From assembly GCA_036504815.1 (NCBI GenBank), contig DASXUN010000004.1, positions 1 through 64,000 of the forward strand: 64,000 nt of DNA. Direction: 5' to 3'. The translations under genes were made by a program, and so were the position numbers. The stretch is from Gemmatimonadaceae bacterium (GTDB taxonomy: Bacteria; Gemmatimonadota; Gemmatimonadetes; Gemmatimonadales; Gemmatimonadaceae). The notes beneath the pieces were generated by a model. It did no database searches and was not told the origin of the DNA. It saw only the letters and a list, made by a program, of their open reading frames with translations. Shown piece after piece: positions 32,949 through 48,045 of this stretch. The stretch's first letter is position 1, and each line of letters opens with the position of its first letter.

Positions 32949-33440
32949 CTACCACCCGGCGGCGCGCGCGTCCCACACACCGGGCCGCGGGTCGTTGAGG
33001 AGCTCGAGCAGCTCGTCCCACGCGACTTCGAGATGTCCGAGCGCGTTGGTGCTCATTTCCTCGCCCAGCTCGAAGGACTCGCCGCGCACGCCGAGCACCC
33101 ACGCCGGCGGTGGCGTGCGCCCCGTGATCTCGTGCGCGACGTGCAGCACTGCCTCCGGACTGAGCTCGTGCGAGGTGTACGAGCTGTCGCGCTCCTCCTT
33201 GGTGCGCCGCAGGCAGAAGGGAGCGTGCGCCGATGCGTCGGCGTCGACGAAGAGCACGAGGTCGGCGTCCACGACGTCGAGGGCGTGCTCGACCTGCAGC
33301 TGGAAGTCCTCGACGACGCGCACGTCGACGTCGGGGCGCTCCTCGAGCCACTGCCGCACGCGCGCCAGCAGCGCCGGCCCCAGGGCGTCGTCGCCGCGGC
33401 TCGGATTGCCGCAGCCGAGGAGCACCACGTGCGCCGTCAC
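32949..33440 (-). CDS. hoxW: [NiFe] hydrogenase maturation endopeptidase (HoxW-like)
   Basis: Removes the C-terminal extension of the large subunit after nickel insertion. 163 residues of the HyaD/HycI/HoxW family, with LLGCGNPSRGDDALGPAL at the N terminus, where the first Asp pair contributes nickel-sensing residues, and LVLFVDADAS at the second strand. The GTG at 33440 overlaps the hoxH stop (GTGA); the frame extends upstream to 33572 but lies within hoxH. Confidence 0.88.
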   Translation of the reverse strand: MTAHVVLLGCGNPSRGDDALGPALLARVRQWLEERPDVDVRVVEDFQLQVEHALDVVDADLVLFVDADASAHAPFCLRRTKEERDSSYTSHELSPEAVLHVAHEITGRTPPPAWVLGVRGESFELGEEMSTNALGHLEVAWDELLELLNDPRPGVWDARAAGW

Positions 33441-34933
33441 GGCGCGCGGGCCTCCGGCGTACACGCGCCATCCGCGCCCTTCACCAGGCGGTCGATGACC
33501 TGTCCCTCGCAGTTCACGAGTTCCACCTGCAGCGGCATGCGGCCCAGCGCGTGGGTGGCGCACGACAGGCACGGGTCGAAGGCGCGCACCGCCACTTCGA
33601 TGTGGTTCAGCAATCCCTCGGTCAGCTTCTGGCCGTCGAGGTAGCTGGCCGCGACGGTGCGCACGGCCTCGTTCATCGCCTGGTTGTTGTTGGTCGTGCT
33701 GACGATCAGGTTGGCGCGCACCACGACGTCGTTCTCATCCACCTTGTAGTGATGGAAGAGCGTCCCGCGCGGCGCCTCGATGACGCCCACGCCCTCGAGG
33801 GCGCGCTCGCCCTTCACCACCAGGTCGGTGCCGATGATGTCGGGATCGTCGAGCAGGCGCTCGATCCCCTCGGCCGCGTGCAGCATCTCGATGAGTCGCG
33901 CCCAGTGGTAGGCGAGCGTCGCATGCTGCATGCCGCCGTTGGCCGCCTGGCGGAACAGCTGGCGCTCGTGCTCCGCGAACACCGTGTCGAGGAAGTCGCA
34001 GGTGTTCATCCGGGCCAGCGGCCCCACGCGGTACCAGCCGTCCTCGTCGCCGAGGTTGATGATGAACGGGAACTTCATGTACGACCAGGACTTCACTTCC
34101 TCGTGGATGTAGCGGTTGTAGCGCGTGTAATCCACGTGGTCGAAGATCGTCGCGCCCTGCGCGTCCAGCGCGCGCAGGCCCCCGTCGTAGAAGTCGAGCG
34201 CGCCGTCGTTGCGCACGAGGCTCAGGAAGTTCGAGGGGAAGACGCCGAAGATGGGCGCGTGCACGCTGGCCTCGAGGACGTCGCGGCAGGTGCGCACCGC
34301 CTCCTGGCTCCAGCGGATGCACTGCGTGATGTCACGCCGCAGGGTGTCGCGCTCCTCGATGGTCAGCGCCTTGTTCATCCCGCCGGGAATGCACGCCGAG
34401 CCGTGAATGCGCTTGCCCGCCACGGCCCGGATGACCTCCTGGCCGTACTTGCGCAGCTTGACGCCGCGCACGGCGAGATCGGGATGCTCGCCGATGACGC
34501 CGATGACGTTGCGACGCTCCGGCTCCGAGTCGAAGCCGAAGAGGAGGTCCGGGCTGGCGAGGTGGAAGAAGTGCAGGGCATGCGACTGCAGCAGCTGTCC
34601 CTTGTGCATCAGGCGGCGCAGCTTCTCGGCGGTCGGGGTCAGCTGCCGCGCGCCCACCAGCATGTCCACGGCCTTGCCCGCCGCCAGGTGGTGACTGACC
34701 GGGCAGATGCCGCAGAGCCGCTGCACCAGCACGGGCACCTCCCAGAACGGGCGGCCCTGGATGAACTTCTCGAAGCCACGGAACTCGACGATGTGCAGCC
34801 GCGCCTGGTGCACGCGATTCTGTTCGTCGAGGAGCAGCGTGACCTTCCCATGCCCCTCGACGCGCGTGATCGGCTCGATGGCGATGCGGCGCAGGGTGCG
34901 GGGATGGGCGGCGGTTTCCAGCAGGTGGGTCAC
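33437..34933 (-). CDS. hoxH: NAD-linked [NiFe] hydrogenase large subunit
   Basis: Carries the Ni-Fe(CN)2CO site. 498 residues. L1 motif RLCGICPVSHH near residue 62 and L2 motif DPCLSCATHALG near residue 458 give the four Ni-binding Cys. About 30 residues follow L2 and should be cleaved by the HoxW encoded next. The N-terminal EPITRVEGHGKV is canonical. With HoxF, HoxU and HoxY this is a group 3d type bidirectional soluble enzyme that couples H2 to NAD+. Confidence 0.95.
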   Translation of the reverse strand: MTHLLETAAHPRTLRRIAIEPITRVEGHGKVTLLLDEQNRVHQARLHIVEFRGFEKFIQGRPFWEVPVLVQRLCGICPVSHHLAAGKAVDMLVGARQLTPTAEKLRRLMHKGQLLQSHALHFFHLASPDLLFGFDSEPERRNVIGVIGEHPDLAVRGVKLRKYGQEVIRAVAGKRIHGSACIPGGMNKALTIEERDTLRRDITQCIRWSQEAVRTCRDVLEASVHAPIFGVFPSNFLSLVRNDGALDFYDGGLRALDAQGATIFDHVDYTRYNRYIHEEVKSWSYMKFPFIINLGDEDGWYRVGPLARMNTCDFLDTVFAEHERQLFRQAANGGMQHATLAYHWARLIEMLHAAEGIERLLDDPDIIGTDLVVKGERALEGVGVIEAPRGTLFHHYKVDENDVVVRANLIVSTTNNNQAMNEAVRTVAASYLDGQKLTEGLLNHIEVAVRAFDPCLSCATHALGRMPLQVELVNCEGQVIDRLVKGADGACTPEARAP

Positions 34934-34946
34934 GGAACGTCTCCGG

Positions 34947-35489
34947 TCAGTCGTACTTCAGCAGCGCGGGCGGCAGGTGCGGATCGCGTCCGGTGACCAG
35001 CGCGCTGAGGACGTGCCACAGGGCGTCCGCCGAGGGCGGGCAGCCGGGCACATAGTAGTCCACCCGCACCACTTCGTGGAGCGGATACACCTTGTTGAGC
35101 AACAGCGGCAGCTCGGGATCGTCGGGGATGTGCGCGTTCTCGACGCCGACGCCGCGGATGTACGATTCCTCGAGGCAGGACTTGAGGCTGTGGTGATTGC
35201 GCATCGACGGGATGCCGCCGGTCATCGCGCACTCGCCCACCGCCACCAGGATGCGGCAATGGTCGCGGAAATGATGGAGCAGATGCACGTTCTCGACGTT
35301 GCACACGCCGCCCTCGATGAGCCCGATGTCCACCACCCCGTGGATGGCCTTGATGTCGTTGATGGGGCTGCGGTCGAAATCGGCGAGTTCGAGCAGCTCG
35401 AGCAGGCGCTCGTCGATGTCGAGGAGCGACATGTGGCAGCCGAAGCACCCGGCGAGCGAGCAGGTGGCGATCTTGCGCTTGCTAGCCAT
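34947..35489 (-). CDS. hoxY: NAD-linked [NiFe] hydrogenase small subunit
   Basis: Holds the proximal [4Fe-4S] cluster next to HoxH. 180 residues, short as in group 3d. Cluster Cys are in AGCFGCHMS, VGECAMTGG and VPGCPPSADAL. The absence of a Tat signal fits a cytoplasmic enzyme. It overlaps hoxU by eight bases and is 13 bases from hoxH. Confidence 0.94.
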   Translation of the reverse strand: MASKRKIATCSLAGCFGCHMSLLDIDERLLELLELADFDRSPINDIKAIHGVVDIGLIEGGVCNVENVHLLHHFRDHCRILVAVGECAMTGGIPSMRNHHSLKSCLEESYIRGVGVENAHIPDDPELPLLLNKVYPLHEVVRVDYYVPGCPPSADALWHVLSALVTGRDPHLPPALLKYD

Positions 35490-36222
35490 GGAGCGCCGCC
35501 TCCCGGGCCCGGAACCGCGCCACGCTGTCCTCGTTGATCGGCGCCCGGTCGTACGGACGCTGGCCGATGGGCACCTTGAAGGCCTCGCCCTTCATCATCA
35601 GCGCGCCCACCGGGCAATGCTGCACGGCCTCGTCGTCGCGCGAGACCTTGCTGTCGGCGAGCAGTCCGGACGGCGAGTCCACCACGATGGTGGTGGCGAT
35701 CCCCCGCCCCGTCATCGTGAAGACGTTCTTCTTGTCCACGCTCCGGCTGATGCGCACGCAGAGCCCGCAGAGGATGCAGCGGTCGCGGTCGAGGATGATG
35801 TCGGGGTGCGATGCGTCCACGTCGCGATGCGGGAAGAGCTGCGGAAAGTGGCTGTCCTGCAGCCCGAGCGCGTAGGCGGTCGCCTGCAGGCGGCAGCTGC
35901 CGCTCTTCTCGCAGGCGGGGCAGTAGTGGTTCCCCTCGACCAGCAGCATGTCGGTGAGATCGCGCCGCATCTCGTTGAGCTCCGGCGTGTCGCTGCGCAC
36001 ATCCTGCCCGGCCACGGCCGGCTGCGTGCACGACGCAAACGGGCGGCCGTTCACGATGACCGTGCACAGGCGGCAGCTGCTGTGCGGTTCGAAGTCGGGG
36101 TTGTGGCAGAGATGCGGGATGTAGACGCCGGCCGCCATCGCCGCGTCGAACACCGTCTGCCCCTCGCGGAACGGGATCTCCCGGCCGTCGAGGCGGAAGG
36201 TCTTCTTGCTGTCGGGACTCAT
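35482..36222 (-). CDS. hoxU: Diaphorase small subunit HoxU (NuoG-like ferredoxin)
   Basis: Electron wire between HoxF and HoxY, 246 residues. N-terminal [2Fe-2S] domain with CHNPDFEPHSSCRLC and a later CTQPA; then the His/Cys3 [4Fe-4S] site (HYCPACEKSGSC) and ferredoxin Cys in CILCGLCVR and CPVGAL. The ATG at 36222 has GAGGACGAGG upstream and lies 10 bases past the hoxF stop; an upstream frame to 36303 is within hoxF. Confidence 0.93.
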   Translation of the reverse strand: MSPDSKKTFRLDGREIPFREGQTVFDAAMAAGVYIPHLCHNPDFEPHSSCRLCTVIVNGRPFASCTQPAVAGQDVRSDTPELNEMRRDLTDMLLVEGNHYCPACEKSGSCRLQATAYALGLQDSHFPQLFPHRDVDASHPDIILDRDRCILCGLCVRISRSVDKKNVFTMTGRGIATTIVVDSPSGLLADSKVSRDDEAVQHCPVGALMMKGEAFKVPIGQRPYDRAPINEDSVARFRAREAALHG

Positions 36223-36232
36223 GGCCTCGTCC

Positions 36233-38095
36233 TCACAGGTGCGCCAGGGCGTCGTCGCGGCCGGTGAGCTGCCGAGCCTCGTGCAACGCGGCGTCGAGAT
36301 CAAACGCCGGCACGAACTCGGTGGTCATCATCCGCTTGTCCCAGTCGCCACGGAACTTCAGCAGGCTGTCGATCAGGTGGTTGGGCGCCGTCTGGCCGAG
36401 CCCGCAATGCGCCGTCGTCTTGAGCAGCTGGCTGATGCGCTGCACTTCCGCGACGTCCATCGGGCTGCCCTTCCCCGCCGCCACCTTTTCCACCAGCGCC
36501 GCGAGGAGGCTGGTGCCCACGCGGCAGGGCGTGCACAGCCCGCAGCTCTCGTGCCGGAAGAAGTGTGCGAAGTTGCGCACGACCTCGAACATGTCGCGCT
36601 GCGGCCCGAAGATCATGCAGGTGCCGACGGTCGAGAGGTCCTCGAAGGCGAGATTGCGGTCGAACTCCAGCCGCGAGATCGTCACGCCGGACGGGCCGCT
36701 GATCTGCACCGCCTGCGCGTCGAGGCCGCCGCAGTCGCGCAGCACTTCGCGCACGCTGACGCCGTAGGGATACTCGTAGATTCCGGGACGCTCGCAGTCG
36801 CCGGAGACGCAGAAGAGCTTGGTGCCGGCGGAATGCGACGTCCCGTGCCCCGCGAACCAGGCGCCACCCTTGAGCGCGATGTTCGCCGCCGCCGCGAACG
36901 TCTCGACGTTGTTCACCACCGTGGGGCGTCGGTTCAGGCCGGCCACCACGGGCAGCGGCCAGCGCTTGCGCGGCTTGGCGCGGCGTCCCTCGATGGACTC
37001 GATGAGCGCCGTCTCCATGCCCGCGATGTACGCGCCCGCCCCCCAATGGATGTCGATGTCGAACGCAAAGCCGCTGCCGAGGATGTTGCGCCCCAGCAGG
37101 TCCGCCTCGCGCCGGCGCGCGAGCACCGCTTCGAGGTGCGACTTCAGGTACCAGTACTCCTGGCGGATGTACAGGATGCCGCGCGACGCCCCGATGACGT
37201 ACCCGCAGATCGTCATCCCCTCGAAGACCACGTCCGTGTACGTCGTGAGGAGCACGCGGTCCTTGAACGTCCCCGGCTCTCCCTCGTCGGCGTTGCACAC
37301 GACGTAGCGTTCGAGCGCGGAGATGTCGCGGCACGTCTCCCACTTGATGGCCGCCTTGAATCCGGCGCCGCCGCGACCCCGGAGGTCGGAGCGATACAGC
37401 TCCTTGAGCGTCTCGTCGGCCCCTTGCCGCCGGGCGTGTCCCGACGACGGGTCCACCGATTCCTCGTGCTGGATCTCCTTGAGCGTCTCGTCGCCGCCAC
37501 GCAGCATCGCCGCCTTGAGCGCGGCGCCGGGATCGAACGCGCGGCGGAACATCACGTCCGACCGGCGGAAGTTATCTTCCACCAGGAACAGCTCCCGCGG
37601 CCAGGCGTCCAGCGGCTGGCGGGCGTTGATCAGCTCGGCGATCAGGTCCATGCGGAGGCGCGTCAGCCGCGTCACGGCCACGCCGTTGACGAGCCCGGCC
37701 GGCCCCTGATCGCACATCCCCGTGCACGAGGTGAAGTGCACGCTGACGCGCCCGTCCTGGCGTGTCTGTCCGAGCGTGACGTTGAGCCGGTTGCAGAGGT
37801 ACGTGGCGAGCCCCGTGCTCCCCTGCATCCGGTCGGTGATGTTGTCGCTGAGGTAGACGACGTACTCGCCCAGGTACGTGTCACTCAGGAAGGAATAGAA
37901 TCCGACGAGGCCGCGCACGTGCGCGCGGGTCACCCGCAGGTGATCGGCGATGAGCGCCACCGCCTCGTCGGGTATGTAGTGATAGGCGTGCTGCGCCTTG
38001 ATGAGTATCTGCAGCAACTCGCCCGGATCACGTTCGTGAGACTCGAGAATCCCCCGCAACTCATCCATGGCGGGGGGCGCTTCCTCGCGCCACAT
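36233..38095 (-). CDS. hoxF: Diaphorase large subunit HoxF (NuoE-NuoF fusion)
   Basis: NAD- and FMN-binding subunit, 620 residues. The NuoE-like N-terminal part (10-160) keeps only the second Cys pair (TSCTGMCDQGP); the first pair is replaced in SDNITDRMQG. The NuoF-like part has LRGRGGAGFKAA for FMN, CNADEGEPGTFKDR and GAGAYIAGMETALIE for NAD, and the [4Fe-4S] motif ESCGLCTPCRVGT with a fourth Cys in AHCGLGQ. Residues 202-232 hold a 25-residue insertion bounded by DETLKE at both ends. First gene of the hox operon. The 250-base divergent gap to the galactanase gene shows no convincing sigma70 or sigma54 site. Confidence 0.94.
   Translation of the reverse strand: MWREEAPPAMDELRGILESHERDPGELLQILIKAQHAYHYIPDEAVALIADHLRVTRAHVRGLVGFYSFLSDTYLGEYVVYLSDNITDRMQGSTGLATYLCNRLNVTLGQTRQDGRVSVHFTSCTGMCDQGPAGLVNGVAVTRLTRLRMDLIAELINARQPLDAWPRELFLVEDNFRRSDVMFRRAFDPGAALKAAMLRGGDETLKEIQHEESVDPSSGHARRQGADETLKELYRSDLRGRGGAGFKAAIKWETCRDISALERYVVCNADEGEPGTFKDRVLLTTYTDVVFEGMTICGYVIGASRGILYIRQEYWYLKSHLEAVLARRREADLLGRNILGSGFAFDIDIHWGAGAYIAGMETALIESIEGRRAKPRKRWPLPVVAGLNRRPTVVNNVETFAAAANIALKGGAWFAGHGTSHSAGTKLFCVSGDCERPGIYEYPYGVSVREVLRDCGGLDAQAVQISGPSGVTISRLEFDRNLAFEDLSTVGTCMIFGPQRDMFEVVRNFAHFFRHESCGLCTPCRVGTSLLAALVEKVAAGKGSPMDVAEVQRISQLLKTTAHCGLGQTAPNHLIDSLLKFRGDWDKRMMTTEFVPAFDLDAALHEARQLTGRDDALAHL
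37400..37493. repeat. 19-bp direct repeat in hoxF, 75 bp apart
   Basis: CTCCTTGAGCGTCTCGTCG occurs exactly at 37400-37418 and 37475-37493. The 75-bp period keeps frame and adds 25 residues between the NuoE- and NuoF-like parts, consistent with an insertion or tandem duplication whose inner copy has diverged. Confidence 0.85.
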
Positions 38096-41836: not shown

Positions 41837-42730
41837 TCAGAGCGTGCCCAGCAGCGCCGCGGTGCGCTGCCAGTCGCCAGCCATCCGGTACTGCACGCGC
41901 CCCGCACGATCCACCAGCACCACCGCCGACGCGTGCGTCACGTCGCCCGTTTGCGGATCCCGCGCGTGGGCCACCTTCCAGGCGTCAATCACGCGCAGCA
42001 CGTCGTCCACCGGGCCGCTGAGCACGCGGTCGTCCGCACCCAGCTGCCATTGTGCGGCGATGGTGCCGAGCCGGCTCGGCACGTCGCGCCACGGATCGAG
42101 CGTCACCACGACCAGCGCGGCGTCCGCGGCTTTCGCCTCGCGCCGCGCCGCCTGCAGGTCGCGCACCACCGTGGGACAGACCGTCTGGCAGTGCGCGAAC
42201 GCGAACGTCACCATCACTCGGCGGCCGCGCAGGGCGTCCAGCGAGAAACGCTGGCCGTGCTGGTCCACGAGCGGCATCGGAGGGGCCGGCTCGACGTAGC
42301 GCGCGTCGGCCATCGTCCCCGCGAACGGCGCCGGCGCAAACAGCGCCGCCGCCGGGTGTCCCCGCGCCGTGCGCACGCGCTGCACCGCGGCGCCCACACC
42401 GTACGTACACAGCACCAGCGTTCCGGCAATGAGCGCCTGGCCGGCAAATGACGCGCGCAGGCGCTTCAGGTCCGCACGCAACGTGTGCCCCCAGACGGCA
42501 AGCAGGAACCCCACCATGCCAATCGGCTCGCCGATCAGCAGCACCCATCCCCCCGCGTCGGGCAGGCCGGTGGGCGTCGCGCCGAAGCAGGCCGCGCGGG
42601 TGCGCAGCACCCACTCCGGAACCGCCGCACCCACCGGCCACAACGCGAGCGCCCACCACGATGCCGTGATGGCAAGGATGCCCCCGAGGGCGGCCAGCGC
42701 CGCGCCGCCCCGCGCCCGCGCGTCCGTCAT
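41837..42730 (-). CDS. SCO1/SenC-type copper chaperone with membrane domain
   Basis: A 297-residue protein. Three TM helices (about 10-35, 62-82, 95-115) precede a periplasmic thioredoxin-like SCO domain (150-297). The copper-binding site is complete: CQTVC in TFAFAHCQTVCPTVV and the distal His in DVTHASAVVLVD. It probably loads CuA in the subunit II encoded upstream. The multi-helix N-terminal part is unusual; SCO proteins normally have one anchor. It lies three bases downstream of subunit I. Confidence 0.85.
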   Translation of the reverse strand: MTDARARGGAALAALGGILAITASWWALALWPVGAAVPEWVLRTRAACFGATPTGLPDAGGWVLLIGEPIGMVGFLLAVWGHTLRADLKRLRASFAGQALIAGTLVLCTYGVGAAVQRVRTARGHPAAALFAPAPFAGTMADARYVEPAPPMPLVDQHGQRFSLDALRGRRVMVTFAFAHCQTVCPTVVRDLQAARREAKAADAALVVVTLDPWRDVPSRLGTIAAQWQLGADDRVLSGPVDDVLRVIDAWKVAHARDPQTGDVTHASAVVLVDRAGRVQYRMAGDWQRTAALLGTL

Positions 42731-42733
42731 GCC

Positions 42734-44479
42734 CTACCCCACCTTCCAGAGGAAGCTGAGGAGCTTCCAGTTCGTGAAATAGTACACCACGAAGGCCAGC
42801 AGGAAGATGCCGACCAGCACCAGCGTTCCCGGCGTCGCGCCCGCGATACCGCGCGACTCGGCGTGCAAGGCGTCGTTCAGCTCATCCACGTTCGCCGCAT
42901 GCACCGGCGGCGTGGTCAGCCCCTGCGGAATGCCGGCGATGTCCTTGCCGAGCGGCCACGTGGTGATCGCCTCGCCAAAGAAGACCGACTTCACGGCGAT
43001 GGCGATGAAAGCCAGCGCCCCGGTCACCGCGAGAATGCCGCCAATGCCCATGACCGCGAGGACGATGTCCACCGCGGGGTTGAACTGCACGTCAAATGGC
43101 GCCTGCGCGAACGAGATGTCCCAGTGGCGCCGCGGGACCCCGAAGCTGCCGGCGAACGTCATGCCCATGGAGAGCAGCAGCATGCCGATGGAGAAGAGGT
43201 ACGGCTGCATCCTGGCCAGCCCCCAGAACGCCACCTTCCGCCGGAAGATTAGCGGCAGCAGGTAGTACGTGGCGCCCATGAACGCCATCGCCGTTCCGCT
43301 CACCACCGTCGCGTGGAAGTGCCCCGGAATGCGCAGGGTGTTGTGCGCGATGATGTTGATCTGCTCCGTGCCGATGGTCACGCCGGTGATGCCGCCCACG
43401 AAGCCGAAGACCACGACGCTGAAGACGAGCGAGCTGAAGCCGGGATCGCCCCACGGCGCGCGCCGCAGCCAGCCAAACAGCCCGTCCGTGTAGCCGCGCA
43501 GGCGCATGCCGAGCTCCATGCCGGCCGGCACCGTGAAGCCGTGGATCATGGACGCGAGCACGGCCATGTACATGAAGTACGACGTGTTCACGATCTTCCA
43601 CGCCGGTCCGAAGCCGGGGTCCACCAGCAGGTGGTGCGCCGACGCCATCGAGATGAAGAGCACGTACAGCACGAAGGCCGAGCGGCTCACCTTCTCGTTG
43701 AGCACCACGCCGCCGATGGTGAGGCCGCTCAGCATGTACCAGACCGCGACCATCGCCGCCACGTTGATCTGCTGCGACGAATGGCCGAGCGCCCACCAGA
43801 GCATGCGGTAGATCTCCGGATCGATGCTCTTGATCAGGCCGATGCTCCACAGGAAGGTCGGGATGTAGATCATCGCGCCGTGCAGCAGCGTGATGACCGC
43901 GATGATGGCGGCCGTGACCGCGCCGTACACGACGAGCGGCACCGAGCCTTCATACGTCTTCTCGCGCTTGGCGATCACCAGCGTGGCAAAGAAGAGCCCG
44001 GTGACGGTCAGCGCGCCCACGGCGAAGAGGATGACGCCGAGATAGAGCCCCGGATGCGCCTTGAGCGGCGGGTACGACGTGAACAGCACGTCCGCCCGTC
44101 CGGTCCACTGCACCCACTCCACCATCAGCGTGCCCGAGAGCATCAGCCCGAAGCTGAACCAGCCGAGCTTCGGGTTGGCGGGACGCGCGTTCAGCAGCAC
44201 CGTGCTCGTGAACCAGAGCACGGCCATCTCGAAGTAGATGATGAAGAAGATCAGCATGTTCATGCCGTGCACGCCGAGGATGCGGTAGTACCACACCGCC
44301 GGCAGCAGGTGCACGGCCTGCCAGCGCGTCAGCACCAGCAGCAGCGCGGCGATCGCGCCGACGAGCAGCGAGACGATGGCGACGACCGCGTTGACCTTGA
44401 TCAGCGGTTCGGCCGCGGCGGCGATGACCCGGCCGGTGGCCGGACAGACGCGGTGCGGGAAGGTCGCGGCGGTGCTCAC
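42734..44479 (-). CDS. Heme-copper oxidoreductase subunit I lacking the active-site tyrosine; candidate nitric oxide reductase
   Basis: A 581-residue, about 14-helix protein. Metal ligands expected for the superfamily are present: His71 (VHGMNM) for the low-spin heme, His233 and His282-His283 for the CuB/FeB site, and His387/His389 in RIPGHFHATV for the two hemes. The tyrosine cross-linked to the first metal-site His in A/B-type oxidases (His+4) is Gln237 in GHSSQQIN. The tyrosine of C-type oxidases (six before the His pair) is Ile276. O2-reducing members need this tyrosine, and NO-reducing families lack it, so NO reduction is inferred. Overlaps subunit II by ATGA. An oxidase with an unrecognised alternative remains possible. 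Confidence 0.8.
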   Translation of the reverse strand: MSTAATFPHRVCPATGRVIAAAAEPLIKVNAVVAIVSLLVGAIAALLLVLTRWQAVHLLPAVWYYRILGVHGMNMLIFFIIYFEMAVLWFTSTVLLNARPANPKLGWFSFGLMLSGTLMVEWVQWTGRADVLFTSYPPLKAHPGLYLGVILFAVGALTVTGLFFATLVIAKREKTYEGSVPLVVYGAVTAAIIAVITLLHGAMIYIPTFLWSIGLIKSIDPEIYRMLWWALGHSSQQINVAAMVAVWYMLSGLTIGGVVLNEKVSRSAFVLYVLFISMASAHHLLVDPGFGPAWKIVNTSYFMYMAVLASMIHGFTVPAGMELGMRLRGYTDGLFGWLRRAPWGDPGFSSLVFSVVVFGFVGGITGVTIGTEQINIIAHNTLRIPGHFHATVVSGTAMAFMGATYYLLPLIFRRKVAFWGLARMQPYLFSIGMLLLSMGMTFAGSFGVPRRHWDISFAQAPFDVQFNPAVDIVLAVMGIGGILAVTGALAFIAIAVKSVFFGEAITTWPLGKDIAGIPQGLTTPPVHAANVDELNDALHAESRGIAGATPGTLVLVGIFLLAFVVYYFTNWKLLSFLWKVG

Positions 44480-45081
44480 TTGGCCTCCCGGTCACGGATG
44501 ACCGCATGGGAATTGTCGGCGACCGTCTTGCCGGCGGCATCGACGACGATGACGCGTCCCACCATCGTGTGGTGGCCGATGCCGCAGAACTCGTTGCAGA
44601 TGATGCGGAAGTCCCCCGCCGCGGTGGGCGTGACCTGCAGCGCGTAGTCGTAGCCCGGCACGACCTGGAAGTTCACGTTCATCGGGTACAGGCTGAAGCC
44701 GTGATTGACGTCGAGCGACGACATGTGCAGGCGGTAGGTCGATCCGGCCTGCAGCTGCAGGATGGGGAACCACTGGAAGGTCATCCCCGTCAGGTAGACC
44801 TCCGCGCCCGGCGGCGGCGCCACGATGGGAATGCCGCGGTCCTCGCCGATCTTGTACTGCTTGGCGAATTCGACGGAGCGCTGGTAGTACTTCACCGGAT
44901 CGACGCGCCGCCGGATGCCCGAAGGGTTCTGCCCGCCCTTCCAGTGCCAGAGCGGCATCATGGCGAAGAGCACCATGCACCAGGCGAACGCGATCGCCAC
45001 CCACACCTTCTCGGCCTTGTGCGCCGGCTTCCACCAGACGCCCGGCACCGGATCCAGCCCCGAATGCACCTTGGTCAGCAT
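44476..45081 (-). CDS. Heme-copper oxidoreductase subunit II with CuA
   Basis: A 201-residue protein with one TM helix near residues 25-45 and a C-terminal cupredoxin domain. The CuA site is complete: His in DVNHGFSLYP and CNEFCGIGHHTM with two Cys, His and Met. It therefore accepts electrons one at a time from a cytochrome c or a blue-copper protein. A single TM helix is typical of B-type and related enzymes. Upstream comes a 55-residue membrane protein, downstream the overlapping subunit I. Confidence 0.9.
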   Translation of the reverse strand: MLTKVHSGLDPVPGVWWKPAHKAEKVWVAIAFAWCMVLFAMMPLWHWKGGQNPSGIRRRVDPVKYYQRSVEFAKQYKIGEDRGIPIVAPPPGAEVYLTGMTFQWFPILQLQAGSTYRLHMSSLDVNHGFSLYPMNVNFQVVPGYDYALQVTPTAAGDFRIICNEFCGIGHHTMVGRVIVVDAAGKTVADNSHAVIRDREAK

Positions 45082-45088
45082 GAGGACC

Positions 45089-45256
45089 TCATGGAAGCGT
45101 GGCGGCGGGCATCGTGAGGATCTCCCACAGGCCCCAGCCGGTGTAGACGACGAGCATCACCACGATGCCGAGCGCCAGCAACAGGAAGACGTTGTCGAAC
45201 AGCCGCTGGAACAGCGGCGGCGATGCGGGCGCGCCTAGTGGCGGCGAGTCTGCCAT
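45089..45256 (-). CDS. Small single-helix subunit
   Basis: A 55-residue protein: a Pro-rich N terminus, a basic/amphipathic FQRLFDN segment, then one TM helix (VFLLLALGIVVMLVVYTGW). GAGGG lies about four bases before the ATG at 45256. The position between the regulator and subunit II, seven bases from the latter, marks it as a small structural subunit of the heme-copper complex, like subunit IIa or CcoQ of other enzymes. Confidence 0.75.
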   Translation of the reverse strand: MADSPPLGAPASPPLFQRLFDNVFLLLALGIVVMLVVYTGWGLWEILTMPAATLP

Positions 45257-45282: not shown

Positions 45283-45759
45283 TCAGCGGCCGCGCGCCGG
45301 GGCGCGACGCGCGGTGGCGCGCGGCCGCGCCAGGGAGGCCGGGGAGGCCGCGGGGTCGCGTGAATCCCCCAGCAGGTCGGCGATGGTCGTGCGGGCGAAG
45401 TAGGTCTGCAGCGAGGTGGAGACGGCCGACCAGCCGGCGTGCGCGGCGCAGGCGCGCGCGCCGCCGCAGTGGGCGCGGCCGAGCAGGCAGTGACGCGTGG
45501 CGACGTCCTCGAACGGCGCGGTGACCTGGGCGAGCGTCAGCCGGCCGGCGGGGACCGCCAGCTGGAAGCCGCCGTGCGGGCCGCGCTCGCTTTTCAGCAC
45601 CCCGGCGCGCGCCAGCACGTGCAGCGTCTTGGACAGGTAGTTCCGCGGGACGTCGAGCGCCGCGGCCGTGGGGCCCACGCGCACGGGCGCCGCGACGCCG
45701 TGCCGGGCCACGTACACGACGGCGCGAATGGCATACTGCGACGTTCCCGAAATCCACAT
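45283..45759 (-). CDS. Rrf2-family Fe-S regulator (NsrR/IscR-like)
   Basis: A 158-residue regulator. The winged helix has YAIRAVVYVARHG and VPRNYLSKTLHVLARAGVLKSERGP, read as recognition helix and wing, followed by GGFQLA. Three Cys at 91, 98 and 104 (C-x6-C-x5-C) lie where NsrR and IscR bind their Fe-S cluster, so sensing of NO, O2 or iron is likely. First gene of the heme-copper operon (26 bases to the small subunit), which suggests autoregulation. The palindrome at 45814-45835 is a likely operator. The ATG has GGGAGGG upstream. NO rather than iron as the signal is inference from context. Confidence 0.85.
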   Translation of the reverse strand: MWISGTSQYAIRAVVYVARHGVAAPVRVGPTAAALDVPRNYLSKTLHVLARAGVLKSERGPHGGFQLAVPAGRLTLAQVTAPFEDVATRHCLLGRAHCGGARACAAHAGWSAVSTSLQTYFARTTIADLLGDSRDPAASPASLARPRATARRAPARGR

Positions 45760-45803: not shown

Positions 45804-45836
45804 TGTTGTTGTGTTTATCATGTGCATATGATAAAT
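45804..45836. promoter_or_regulatory. Divergent promoter-operator with a perfect palindrome
   Basis: TTTATCAT (45814-45821), six bases, ATGATAAA (45828-45835): a perfect 8-6-8 palindrome and one of few A/T-rich spots in the region. Plus strand: TGTTGT, 17 bases, TATGAT (45827-45832), 25 bases before the cytochrome b start. Minus strand: TTGCGG, 17 bases, CATGAT, leading to the Rrf2 gene. Both -10 boxes lie in the palindrome, so a bound regulator would control both directions. Confidence 0.65.
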
Positions 45837-45856: not shown

Positions 45857-47428
45857 GTGCGCGCACTCGAACACCTCGCCCTGCGGCCGCTTCGCGCCGC
45901 TGACGCCGCCGCCACCCGGCTCTTCGGCTGGCGGCACAACCCGCTGCACCAGACCGGCACCATTGCCGCCGCGCTGCTCGGCGTGCTGATCGCCACCGGA
46001 CTGTACCTGCTCGTCTTCTATCGGGTGGGGGCGCCGTGGGAGTCCGTCCAGCGGCTGCAGGCCGATCCGTTCCTCGGCCGGTGGATCCGGTCGCTGCACC
46101 GCTTCGCCTCCGACGCCATCATCGTCGCCGTCGCGCTGCACGCGTGGCGACTCTTTGCGCAGGCCCGTTCCTGGGGGCCGCGCGCGCTCGCGTGGACGTC
46201 CGGCGTGGTCCTGCTGACCGTGCTCTTCATCAGCGGATGGACCGGCTACGTGATGGTCTGGGACAGCTTCGGCGCGCAGCTCGCCGTGAGTGGCGCGCGC
46301 CTGATCGACGCGCTCCCGGTCATCAGCGAACCGGTGCGCCGCATCTTCGCCGGCGACGAGCCGGTGCCGGCCGCCTTCTTCTTCCTCAACCTGTTCCTGC
46401 ACGTCGCACTGCCGCTGGGCGCCGCGGCTGGCCTGTGGATTCATCTGTCGCGCCTCGCCCGGCCGGTCATCATCCCACCACGGCCGCTGCTCTACGCAGT
46501 CAGCGGCGCGCTCACGGCGCTCGCGATCCTTCGCCCGACGCCGCTGGCGCCGCAGGCCGACCTGCTCGGCCTGCCGCCGTCCATTCCGCTGGACCTGTTC
46601 TATGCGTTCTGGCTCCCGTGGGCGGCGGCGCTACCGCCGTGGCTGGCGTGGGCTGGCGCCGTCGGGACGTTTCTCGCCGCCTTTCTCGTGCCCTGGTTCA
46701 CCGCCCGCCCGCGCGAGGTGGCGTGGGCCCCCAGCGTCGTGGACGAGCATCTCTGCACGGGCTGCAACCAGTGCCCGCTGGACTGCCCGTGGGAGGCCAT
46801 CGCGATGGTGCCGCGCGAGGGGGCGCGCGGTGCGCAGTCGGCGATGGTCGCCCGCGTGGACGCGTCGCACTGCGTGTCGTGCGGCATCTGTGCCGGATCG
46901 TGCGCCCCGATGGGCGTGGGCCCGGCCGAGCGGACGGGGCGCGACCAGCTCGCCCGCCTGCGCGCGGCCATCGCCGTCCCCGGGATGCGGGAGCGGCGCC
47001 CGGTCGCGATCTGTTGTGAGCACGCCGCGCCGGCGCATCTCGCGCCGTTGCGCGCGCAGGGGGCCGAGGTCCAGCTGGTCCCCTGCGCCGGCAACCTGCA
47101 CAGTTCGGTGATCGAGTTGATGCTGCGCGACGGCACGCCTGGCGTGATGGTCTTCACCTGCGCCCCACGCGACTGCCGCGGGCGCGAGGGGCCGAAGTGG
47201 CTGCACGAGCGGCTGTTCAACGAACGCGAGGCCGAGCTGCAGGCGCGCGTCGACCGCGCGAGGGTCGGCACCGGCGTCATGGCCCCCGGGGACTTGCAGG
47301 GAACCCTCGAGCGCTGGTCGCAGTTCGCGACGAGGCTGCGCGCACGCCCGGTGACGGTGCCGCGCGCCGTTGATGAACCCGTGGGCGCGGAATGCGAACC
47401 GGTGCCGCTCGCCCGGGAGGATCGATGA
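45857..47428 (+). CDS. Fusion of diheme cytochrome b, 2[4Fe-4S] ferredoxin and MvhD-like domain
   Basis: A 523-residue membrane protein. Residues 25-200 form a cytochrome b/b6-like four-helix part with His81/His95 and His182/His196, each pair 14 apart as in bc-type diheme binding. Two or three further helices follow (about 210-280). A bacterial ferredoxin domain has CTGCNQCPLDCP (300-310) and CVSCGICAGSCAP (339-349). Residues 382-470 resemble MvhD/FlpD, with Cys386-387, Cys410 and CAPRDCRGREGPKW (Cys435, Cys440). Role inferred: quinone-linked electron transfer, perhaps from a soluble Hdr-like partner. The GTG start has AAGAGGG seven bases upstream. Confidence 0.82.
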   Translation: MRALEHLALRPLRAADAAATRLFGWRHNPLHQTGTIAAALLGVLIATGLYLLVFYRVGAPWESVQRLQADPFLGRWIRSLHRFASDAIIVAVALHAWRLFAQARSWGPRALAWTSGVVLLTVLFISGWTGYVMVWDSFGAQLAVSGARLIDALPVISEPVRRIFAGDEPVPAAFFFLNLFLHVALPLGAAAGLWIHLSRLARPVIIPPRPLLYAVSGALTALAILRPTPLAPQADLLGLPPSIPLDLFYAFWLPWAAALPPWLAWAGAVGTFLAAFLVPWFTARPREVAWAPSVVDEHLCTGCNQCPLDCPWEAIAMVPREGARGAQSAMVARVDASHCVSCGICAGSCAPMGVGPAERTGRDQLARLRAAIAVPGMRERRPVAICCEHAAPAHLAPLRAQGAEVQLVPCAGNLHSSVIELMLRDGTPGVMVFTCAPRDCRGREGPKWLHERLFNEREAELQARVDRARVGTGVMAPGDLQGTLERWSQFATRLRARPVTVPRAVDEPVGAECEPVPLAREDR

Positions 47429-48045
47429 GCGCCGTCCTCCTGCGCCGGCTTCCAGGCGTTCTCGCCGTGGCGGCCGCGCTGCTGGCGCTGCGTGCCGCCT
47501 CGCTCGCCCCGCTCGGCGCGGCGTCGGCCGACGGCGCGCGACTGCGCCTCTCCTGGTCCGCCCGCCCCGAACGACTCGAGCATTGCCGGCGCCTGAGCGA
47601 TGCCGAGCTCGCGGCGCGTCCTCAGCACATGCGCCTGCGCTGGGAGTGCGAAGGGAAGTTCGCTCGATACCTCCTCACGGTGCGCATCGACGGCCGCCTC
47701 GTGGCCTCGGACACGGTGCACGGCGGTGGGCTCCGACAGGACCGGCCGATGCATCTGCTCCGGGAGTACGATCTGGCGCCCGGTCGTCGGAATCTCTCAA
47801 TCGCGTTGCGGCGTATTGACGCCGCCGCGCCGCCCGATACGGCCGCGGCCGGTGACACGTCCACGGGCACGGCGGCCGCCGATCGGGAGACGCGCGAGGG
47901 ACAGGAGCGGCGCGTGCGGCGGGCCGAGGCCGTGCCGAGCGACCTCGCCATCGATTCGACCATCGCCGTCGCCGCCGGTCGCGTCGTGCTCGTGACCTAC
48001 GCGAGCACCGTGCGCCGACTCGAATTGCGAAACGGCGCCCGGTAA
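47425..48045 (+). CDS. Exported or membrane-anchored protein of unknown function
   Basis: A 206-residue protein overlapping the cytochrome b fusion by ATGA (47425-47428), with GGGAGGATCG before the start. An N-terminal hydrophobic segment (LPGVLAVAAALLALRAASL) acts as anchor or signal. The mature part has two Cys (about 42 and 63), beta-strand-like segments (RYLLTVRIDGRLVASDTV) and a low-complexity Ala/Thr/Asp/Arg stretch near 130-160. No family recognised. Translational coupling implies a role with the cytochrome b fusion in the periplasm. Confidence 0.6.
   Translation: MSAVLLRRLPGVLAVAAALLALRAASLAPLGAASADGARLRLSWSARPERLEHCRRLSDAELAARPQHMRLRWECEGKFARYLLTVRIDGRLVASDTVHGGGLRQDRPMHLLREYDLAPGRRNLSIALRRIDAAAPPDTAAAGDTSTGTAAADRETREGQERRVRRAEAVPSDLAIDSTIAVAAGRVVLVTYASTVRRLELRNGAR

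Follow-up and report, generated by a model that had tools for sequence, protein, structure and literature searches.

A Gemmatimonadaceae gene cluster encodes a very probable CuA-containing NO reductase of the eNOR family beside a conserved cytochrome b-ferredoxin-MvhD fusion protein

The heme-copper complex encoded by the 64,000-nucleotide stretch of Gemmatimonadaceae DNA analysed here (hereafter, the window) is, with high confidence on the basis of its sequence, an eNOR, that is, a CuA-containing, B-type-related heme-copper NO reductase. Its genes form a tight four-gene run on the minus strand, from 45256 to 41837, encoding a 55-residue membrane protein, the CuA-bearing subunit II, subunit I and a SCO-type copper chaperone. 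Subunit I (42734..44479, minus strand; 581 aa) provides the heme-copper core, in which Gln237 replaces the active-site Tyr, and was recognized by Pfam COX1 (9e-59), a ba3 homologue (E ~1e-50), its residues, a tree and a fold model; its GTG start codon overlaps the stop of subunit II. Subunit II (44476..45081, minus strand; 201 aa) comprises one transmembrane helix and a CuA cupredoxin domain, with CoxB/COX2 matches and ba3 subunit II as its PDB match (4e-17). The examined stretch is bounded at 45256 by the start of the conserved small subunit (45089..45256, minus strand), a single-helix protein encoded immediately ahead of subunit II by the first of three oxidoreductase subunit genes. A homologue occupies this position in 78 of the 83 relative loci, in contrast to none of 20 control loci with Tyr-bearing B-type oxidases. 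Starting 3 nt past subunit I, the SCO1/SenC protein (41837..42730, minus strand; Pfam SCO1-SenC 5e-23) is fused to membrane segments and is a probable CuA/CuB assembly factor. Its gene adjoins eNOR in 38 of 42 long loci (at least 15 kb), versus 0/20 Tyr B-type loci from the same class. The order small subunit, II, I, SCO is conserved in eNOR loci.

The initial annotation had listed six ligand histidines in subunit I, at 71, 233, 282, 283, 387 and 389, and we located each of them exactly, within the motifs LGVHGM, LGHSSQQ, SAHHLL and IPGHFH. It had also noted that neither known tyrosine position is occupied. At the A/B-type position, four residues after H233, a HMMER alignment that places H233 on H233 pairs Gln237 with Tyr237 of Thermus ba3, and at the C-type position, six residues before H282, we found Ile276, with Ile or Leu in relatives. 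The CuA site of subunit II is complete as described (H127, C162, E164, C166, H170, M173), its ligands being kept in 81 or 82 of 82 aligned homologues. The protein thus departs from B-type O2 reductases in having no cross-linkable Tyr at His+4, and from C-type (cbb3) O2 reductases in that Ile rather than Tyr precedes the His pair by six residues. In an alignment of the window protein with 83 relatives, Gln236-Gln237 was present in all 84 rows, as opposed to Val236-Tyr237 in 18 of 18 Tyr-bearing B-type sequences. Given this conservation, and since the 80 loci taken from genome contigs had been fetched by DNA patterns that do not contain the Gln236-Gln237 motif, Gln237 is neither a chance substitution nor a sequencing error.

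The residue at this position differs between the Tyr-less families: Gln in eNOR, Asn in sNOR and CuANOR, Asp in gNOR and Glu in cNOR and qNOR (PMC8756737, Table A4). Membership of sNOR, CuANOR (bNOR) or gNOR, which share with eNOR, in the case of sNOR and gNOR, a cupredoxin-type second subunit (PMC8756737), is extremely improbable, as these families carry Asn, Asn or Asp where the window protein has Gln. An Asn-bearing homologue, an sNOR-like heme-copper protein from a genome of the same order (L172 in genome G036; motif GHTMAN), likewise speaks against them, branching on a very long branch outside the group formed by Gln and Tyr B-type proteins. We also discarded cNOR and qNOR, which need Glu in the active site, on account of Gln237 and the CuA second subunit. 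These enzymes share with the window complex the predicted reaction and the missing active-site Tyr; they differ in using Glu in the active site, FeB, and either heme c or a donor part fused to the enzyme, compared with CuB-type ligands, Gln and CuA in the window complex.

Phylogeny, the test put forward in the initial annotation, placed subunit I outside the Tyr-bearing O2-reductase clades. The maximum-likelihood tree covered 61 proteins, with columns 236-237 left out and a sampling that extends to neither Rhodothermus nor archaeal type eNORs. Within it, the 33 Gln proteins formed a single clade (100/100) beside the Tyr B-type oxidases (99/98), and the A- and C-type groups stood apart. The original proposal of a CuA-containing NOR related to the eNOR, sNOR and gNOR groups therefore fits the sequence evidence and can be narrowed, by the Gln signature and the tree, to a predicted eNOR. 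Members of the Gln group come from Gemmatimonadota, Myxococcota, Bdellovibrionota, Nitrospirota, Bacteroidota, Pseudomonadota, Chloroflexota, Thermus and further taxa. The genome of the window lies close to a Gemmatimonas MAG, whose subunit I is 94% identical. Two further members, on contigs labelled Acidobacteriota and Sumerlaeia (L058, L063), are 82-87% identical to the window's protein, reflecting either recent transfer or binning errors. Separately, one heme-copper oxidase homologue (L177, genome G028) apparently lacks the CuB His pair, which aligned as PFMY.

eNORs were reportedly treated by Hemp and Gennis in 2008, and the enzyme of Rhodothermus marinus is said to be the subject of Murali et al. 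2024, a study cited in PMC11388526. Our assignment follows from the Gln signature, the Thermus and Chloroflexi relatives and the published description. Like published eNORs, the window pair combines a B-type-related subunit I, Gln where the cross-linked Tyr would be and the six ligand His with a separate CuA subunit II immediately upstream. It also shares their usual mis-annotation as an oxidase, as had been anticipated: the label that homologues carry is 'cbb3-type cytochrome c oxidase subunit I'. The window complex differs from published cases in coming from a Gemmatimonadaceae member and in having, at its locus, a control region made up of Rrf2 and palindrome as well as the divergently encoded cytochrome b-ferredoxin-MvhD fusion. 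We found no description of this region or of the fusion in the open literature searched, a scope outside which the Murali et al. 2024 paper falls.

In heme-copper enzymes, the active-site Tyr supplies the extra (fourth) electron for O-O cleavage; without it, the site is therefore short of that electron. We nevertheless weighed the idea that the complex is a B-type oxygen reductase that has lost the Tyr and still reduces O2, some other residue donating the electron and proton. Its nearest solved relatives are indeed O2 reductases (ba3), and the predicted subunit I structure showed a normal heme-copper oxidase fold (mean pLDDT 79). The six His ligands, the CuA subunit, an Arg-Arg pair and the equivalents of Tyr136, Tyr248 and Ser309 are shared with Thermus thermophilus ba3, a B-type O2 reductase, from which the window protein departs by having Gln for both Val236 and Tyr237, Asn for Trp239, Val for Tyr244 and His for Thr312. 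Two tyrosines, Tyr272 and Tyr301, moreover set the Gln group apart and are invariant in it, a 17-sequence eNOR subset showing Gln237, Asn239, Val/Ile244, Tyr272, Tyr301 and His313. However, Tyr272 lies ten residues before H282, ~15 A along the helix, and, judged by spacing, either tyrosine is unlikely to be cross-linked to a metal-site His. Nor did we see a replacement Tyr at the ba3 positions, where Tyr237 corresponds to Gln and Tyr133 to Phe, a check made on the alignment rather than on coordinates. In the Gln group, the changes to Gln237, Glu84 and His313 occurred together and have become fixed, with the invariance of Glu84 in the 80 genome-contig loci being partly circular, as its FFE motif served as a search pattern (loci found without FFE also carry Glu). 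Finally, the genome already encodes caa3 and cbb3 oxidases, and the characterised eNOR, counted among the biochemically characterised, B-type-related NOR families, reduces NO (PMC11388526). Taken with these points, continued O2 reduction appears very unlikely.

For an eNOR, catalysis would begin with a periplasmic donor, a cytochrome c or cupredoxin, reducing CuA of subunit II, from where electrons would pass to the low-spin heme (H71/H389) and on to the binuclear site of heme (H387) and CuB (H233, H282, H283). There, the predicted reaction would be 2 NO + 2 e- + 2 H+ -> N2O + H2O, in which Gln237 may help by ordering water or by keeping the hyponitrite intermediate in place. Protons would likely arrive by a modified K-type channel formed by Glu24 of subunit II, Tyr248, Ser310 and His313. 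Glu24 aligns with the Glu of 'EKGW' in ba3 subunit II and, like Tyr248 and Ser310, is a landmark that is kept, whereas ba3 Thr312 is replaced by the invariant His313 and Tyr244 by Val. As a side observation, eNORs of Thermus plasmids and of a Chitinophagaceae member (L038:11986-13671, L185:7986-9668, L125) have Lys (GHFK) instead of the low-spin heme ligand His389, which suggests His/Lys or otherwise altered heme ligation in these proteins.

Just upstream of the 55-aa gene, an Rrf2-family regulator (45283..45759, minus strand; Pfam Rrf2 2.7e-25) marks the start of the eNOR transcription unit. It scored above the cut-off of the rrf2_super model, with IscR and NsrR as the best specific models, both far below their cut-offs, and its three-Cys motif (CLLGRAHCGGARAC), of the form C-x6-C-x5-C, is kept in close relatives. 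Between this gene and the divergent partner gene we found a 20-bp palindrome, TTATCATGTGCATATGATAA (45815..45834), with perfect 7-bp arms and a 6-bp centre. A genome-wide search at up to 2 mismatches returned it as the sole site in the 3.5-Mb genome, versus 0 for the control, and chance would yield ~0.08 such sites in the window at up to 3 mismatches. The palindrome or its inner part recurred at the same position in many relatives, down to ~68-70% protein identity, making it a probable operator between two divergent units. The Rrf2 protein probably represses the operon at this palindrome and would dissociate once NO attacks an Fe-S cluster, acting as a putative NO sensor. In Thermus, eNOR loci contain an Rrf2 gene, a copper oxidase homologous to NirK and a ScdA_N/RIC-type domain; the ScdA_N domain is of a type known from NO-damage repair proteins.

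Whereas eNOR itself is of a known family, the novel part of the locus is the divergently encoded partner protein (45857..47428, plus strand; 523 aa), in which a di-heme cytochrome b is joined to two [4Fe-4S] ferredoxin motifs and an MvhD/FlpD-like domain. A profile search of the PDB found a match for each of its three parts, namely cytochrome b6, MvhD and the ferredoxin region at the C-terminal end of HdrA; the partner differs from these known proteins in combining all three parts in a single eNOR-associated membrane protein. In the predicted model (mean pLDDT 87), the first 285 residues match bc1 cytochrome b. Conserved residues comprise H81, H95, H182 and H196 at cytochrome b spacing, eight Cys in the two ferredoxin motifs and further Cys in the MvhD-like part. 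The partner gene stood beside eNOR in 39 of 42 loci of at least 15 kb, compared with 0/20 Tyr B-type loci from the same class. Genome-wide, with full-length partners counted from 400 bits (57 genomes) and eNOR from 300 bits, it was present in 55/58 eNOR genomes versus 2/140 others. The three exceptions were two genomes with only incomplete eNOR matches and one with the most divergent eNOR. From these patterns we infer that the protein is a redox partner or quinone-linked module of eNOR. More tentatively, eNOR may belong to a larger, so far undescribed respiratory module, in which the fusion, as an obligate redox partner, would pass electrons between NO reduction, the quinone pool and a carrier in the cytoplasm, with a single NO-responsive Rrf2 operator in control; we regard this extended reading as possible rather than probable. 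Overlapping the partner gene by ATGA, a gene for a ~206-aa protein with a hydrophobic N-terminal stretch (47425..48045, plus strand) is present in 51 of the 83 relative loci and forms one ORF with the partner in some relatives; read in frame from 47428, it matched no Pfam family.

To place the complex in its metabolic setting, we turned to the 3.5-Mb genome, which is 99% complete. A COX1-family search recovered the caa3 oxidase, the cbb3 oxidase, eNOR and two small fragment-like proteins, with no cNOR or qNOR among them. NosZ scored far above its cut-off and is of clade II. A NirK-like protein reached 170 bits, under the curated cut-off of 296, and 206 bits against Geobacillus NirK structures, with the copper-binding segments aligned. 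An interim reading of this protein as a NirK lacking the catalytic His was overturned by the same alignment, in which the copper ligands and the catalytic Asp/His are in place. As the search revealed no other NOR while NosZ and a NirK-like protein are encoded, eNOR is the only visible NO -> N2O step, and the bacterium, one of soil type, probably makes nitrous oxide from nitric oxide with it. In the cell, eNOR would thereby connect NO, whether from NirK or from the environment, with the clade II NosZ.

Across the class, eNOR was found in 58 of 198 genomes (~29%). It co-occurred with NirK above the cut-off in 15/58 versus 12/140 genomes (p=0.0025, with kinship ignored). Over all 198 genomes, neither its co-occurrence with NosZ (p=0.13) nor that with NirK of any score (p=0.06) was significant, both associations becoming so only with one large genus left out, a post hoc choice. 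NirK lay within ~8 kb of eNOR in 9/83 loci from several phyla and adjoined it in 7/42 long loci versus 0/20 controls, an adjacency that is suggestive only. In Ardenticatena, eNOR and NirK share one operon (PMC4653789). Many eNOR genomes carry neither NosZ nor NirK at the cut-offs used, so that a role outside denitrification is possible. In one genus (g42; for example G032, G041 and G044), at least 15 eNOR genomes are without NosZ and cut-off NirK, and eNOR there therefore probably serves outside denitrification.

These distributions bear on whether the enzyme is respiratory or detoxifying, a matter of physiological role rather than enzyme identity. A detoxifying eNOR would perform the same chemistry, be induced by NO stress and be uncoupled from growth. 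The dedicated Fe-S-type Rrf2 regulator with its single-site regulon would suit such a role, as would the eNOR genomes missing NirK and NosZ and the hemerythrin and ScdA_N-type genes near eNOR in some loci. However, the window's own genome holds both a NirK-like protein and NosZ, CuA and the K-channel-like residues suggest an electrogenic enzyme, and eNOR co-occurs with NirK in the class. Weighing these, we consider detoxification a serious but somewhat doubtful account of the role of this eNOR.

Recognizing eNOR matters for predictions of nitrogen gas fluxes. In Gemmatimonadota, 13% of the carriers of denitrification genes have nir and nosZ without nor (PMC12569097), and a survey of the phylum found no complete denitrification pathway (PMC10581226). 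Standard models call the eNORs of the ~29% of class genomes sampled cytochrome c oxidase; including them in counts alters predictions of makers and consumers of N2O, the predicted eNOR product and a greenhouse gas. In addition, the near-perfect linkage to the cytochrome b-ferredoxin-MvhD fusion offers a concrete lead on the electron supply to eNOR.

Two minor observations concern neighbouring and related genes. The two fragment-like proteins of the genome (L005; C21:381103-381788) are adjacent, 154-156 aa long and each match one part of COX1 at ~40 bits, and similar partial matches occur in other class genomes. Near the eNOR locus, the window also carries a Hox-like NiFe hydrogenase cluster (33437-38095, minus strand), consisting of a large and a small subunit together with a 620-aa HoxE-HoxF-type fusion that contains FMN and 2Fe-2S domains.
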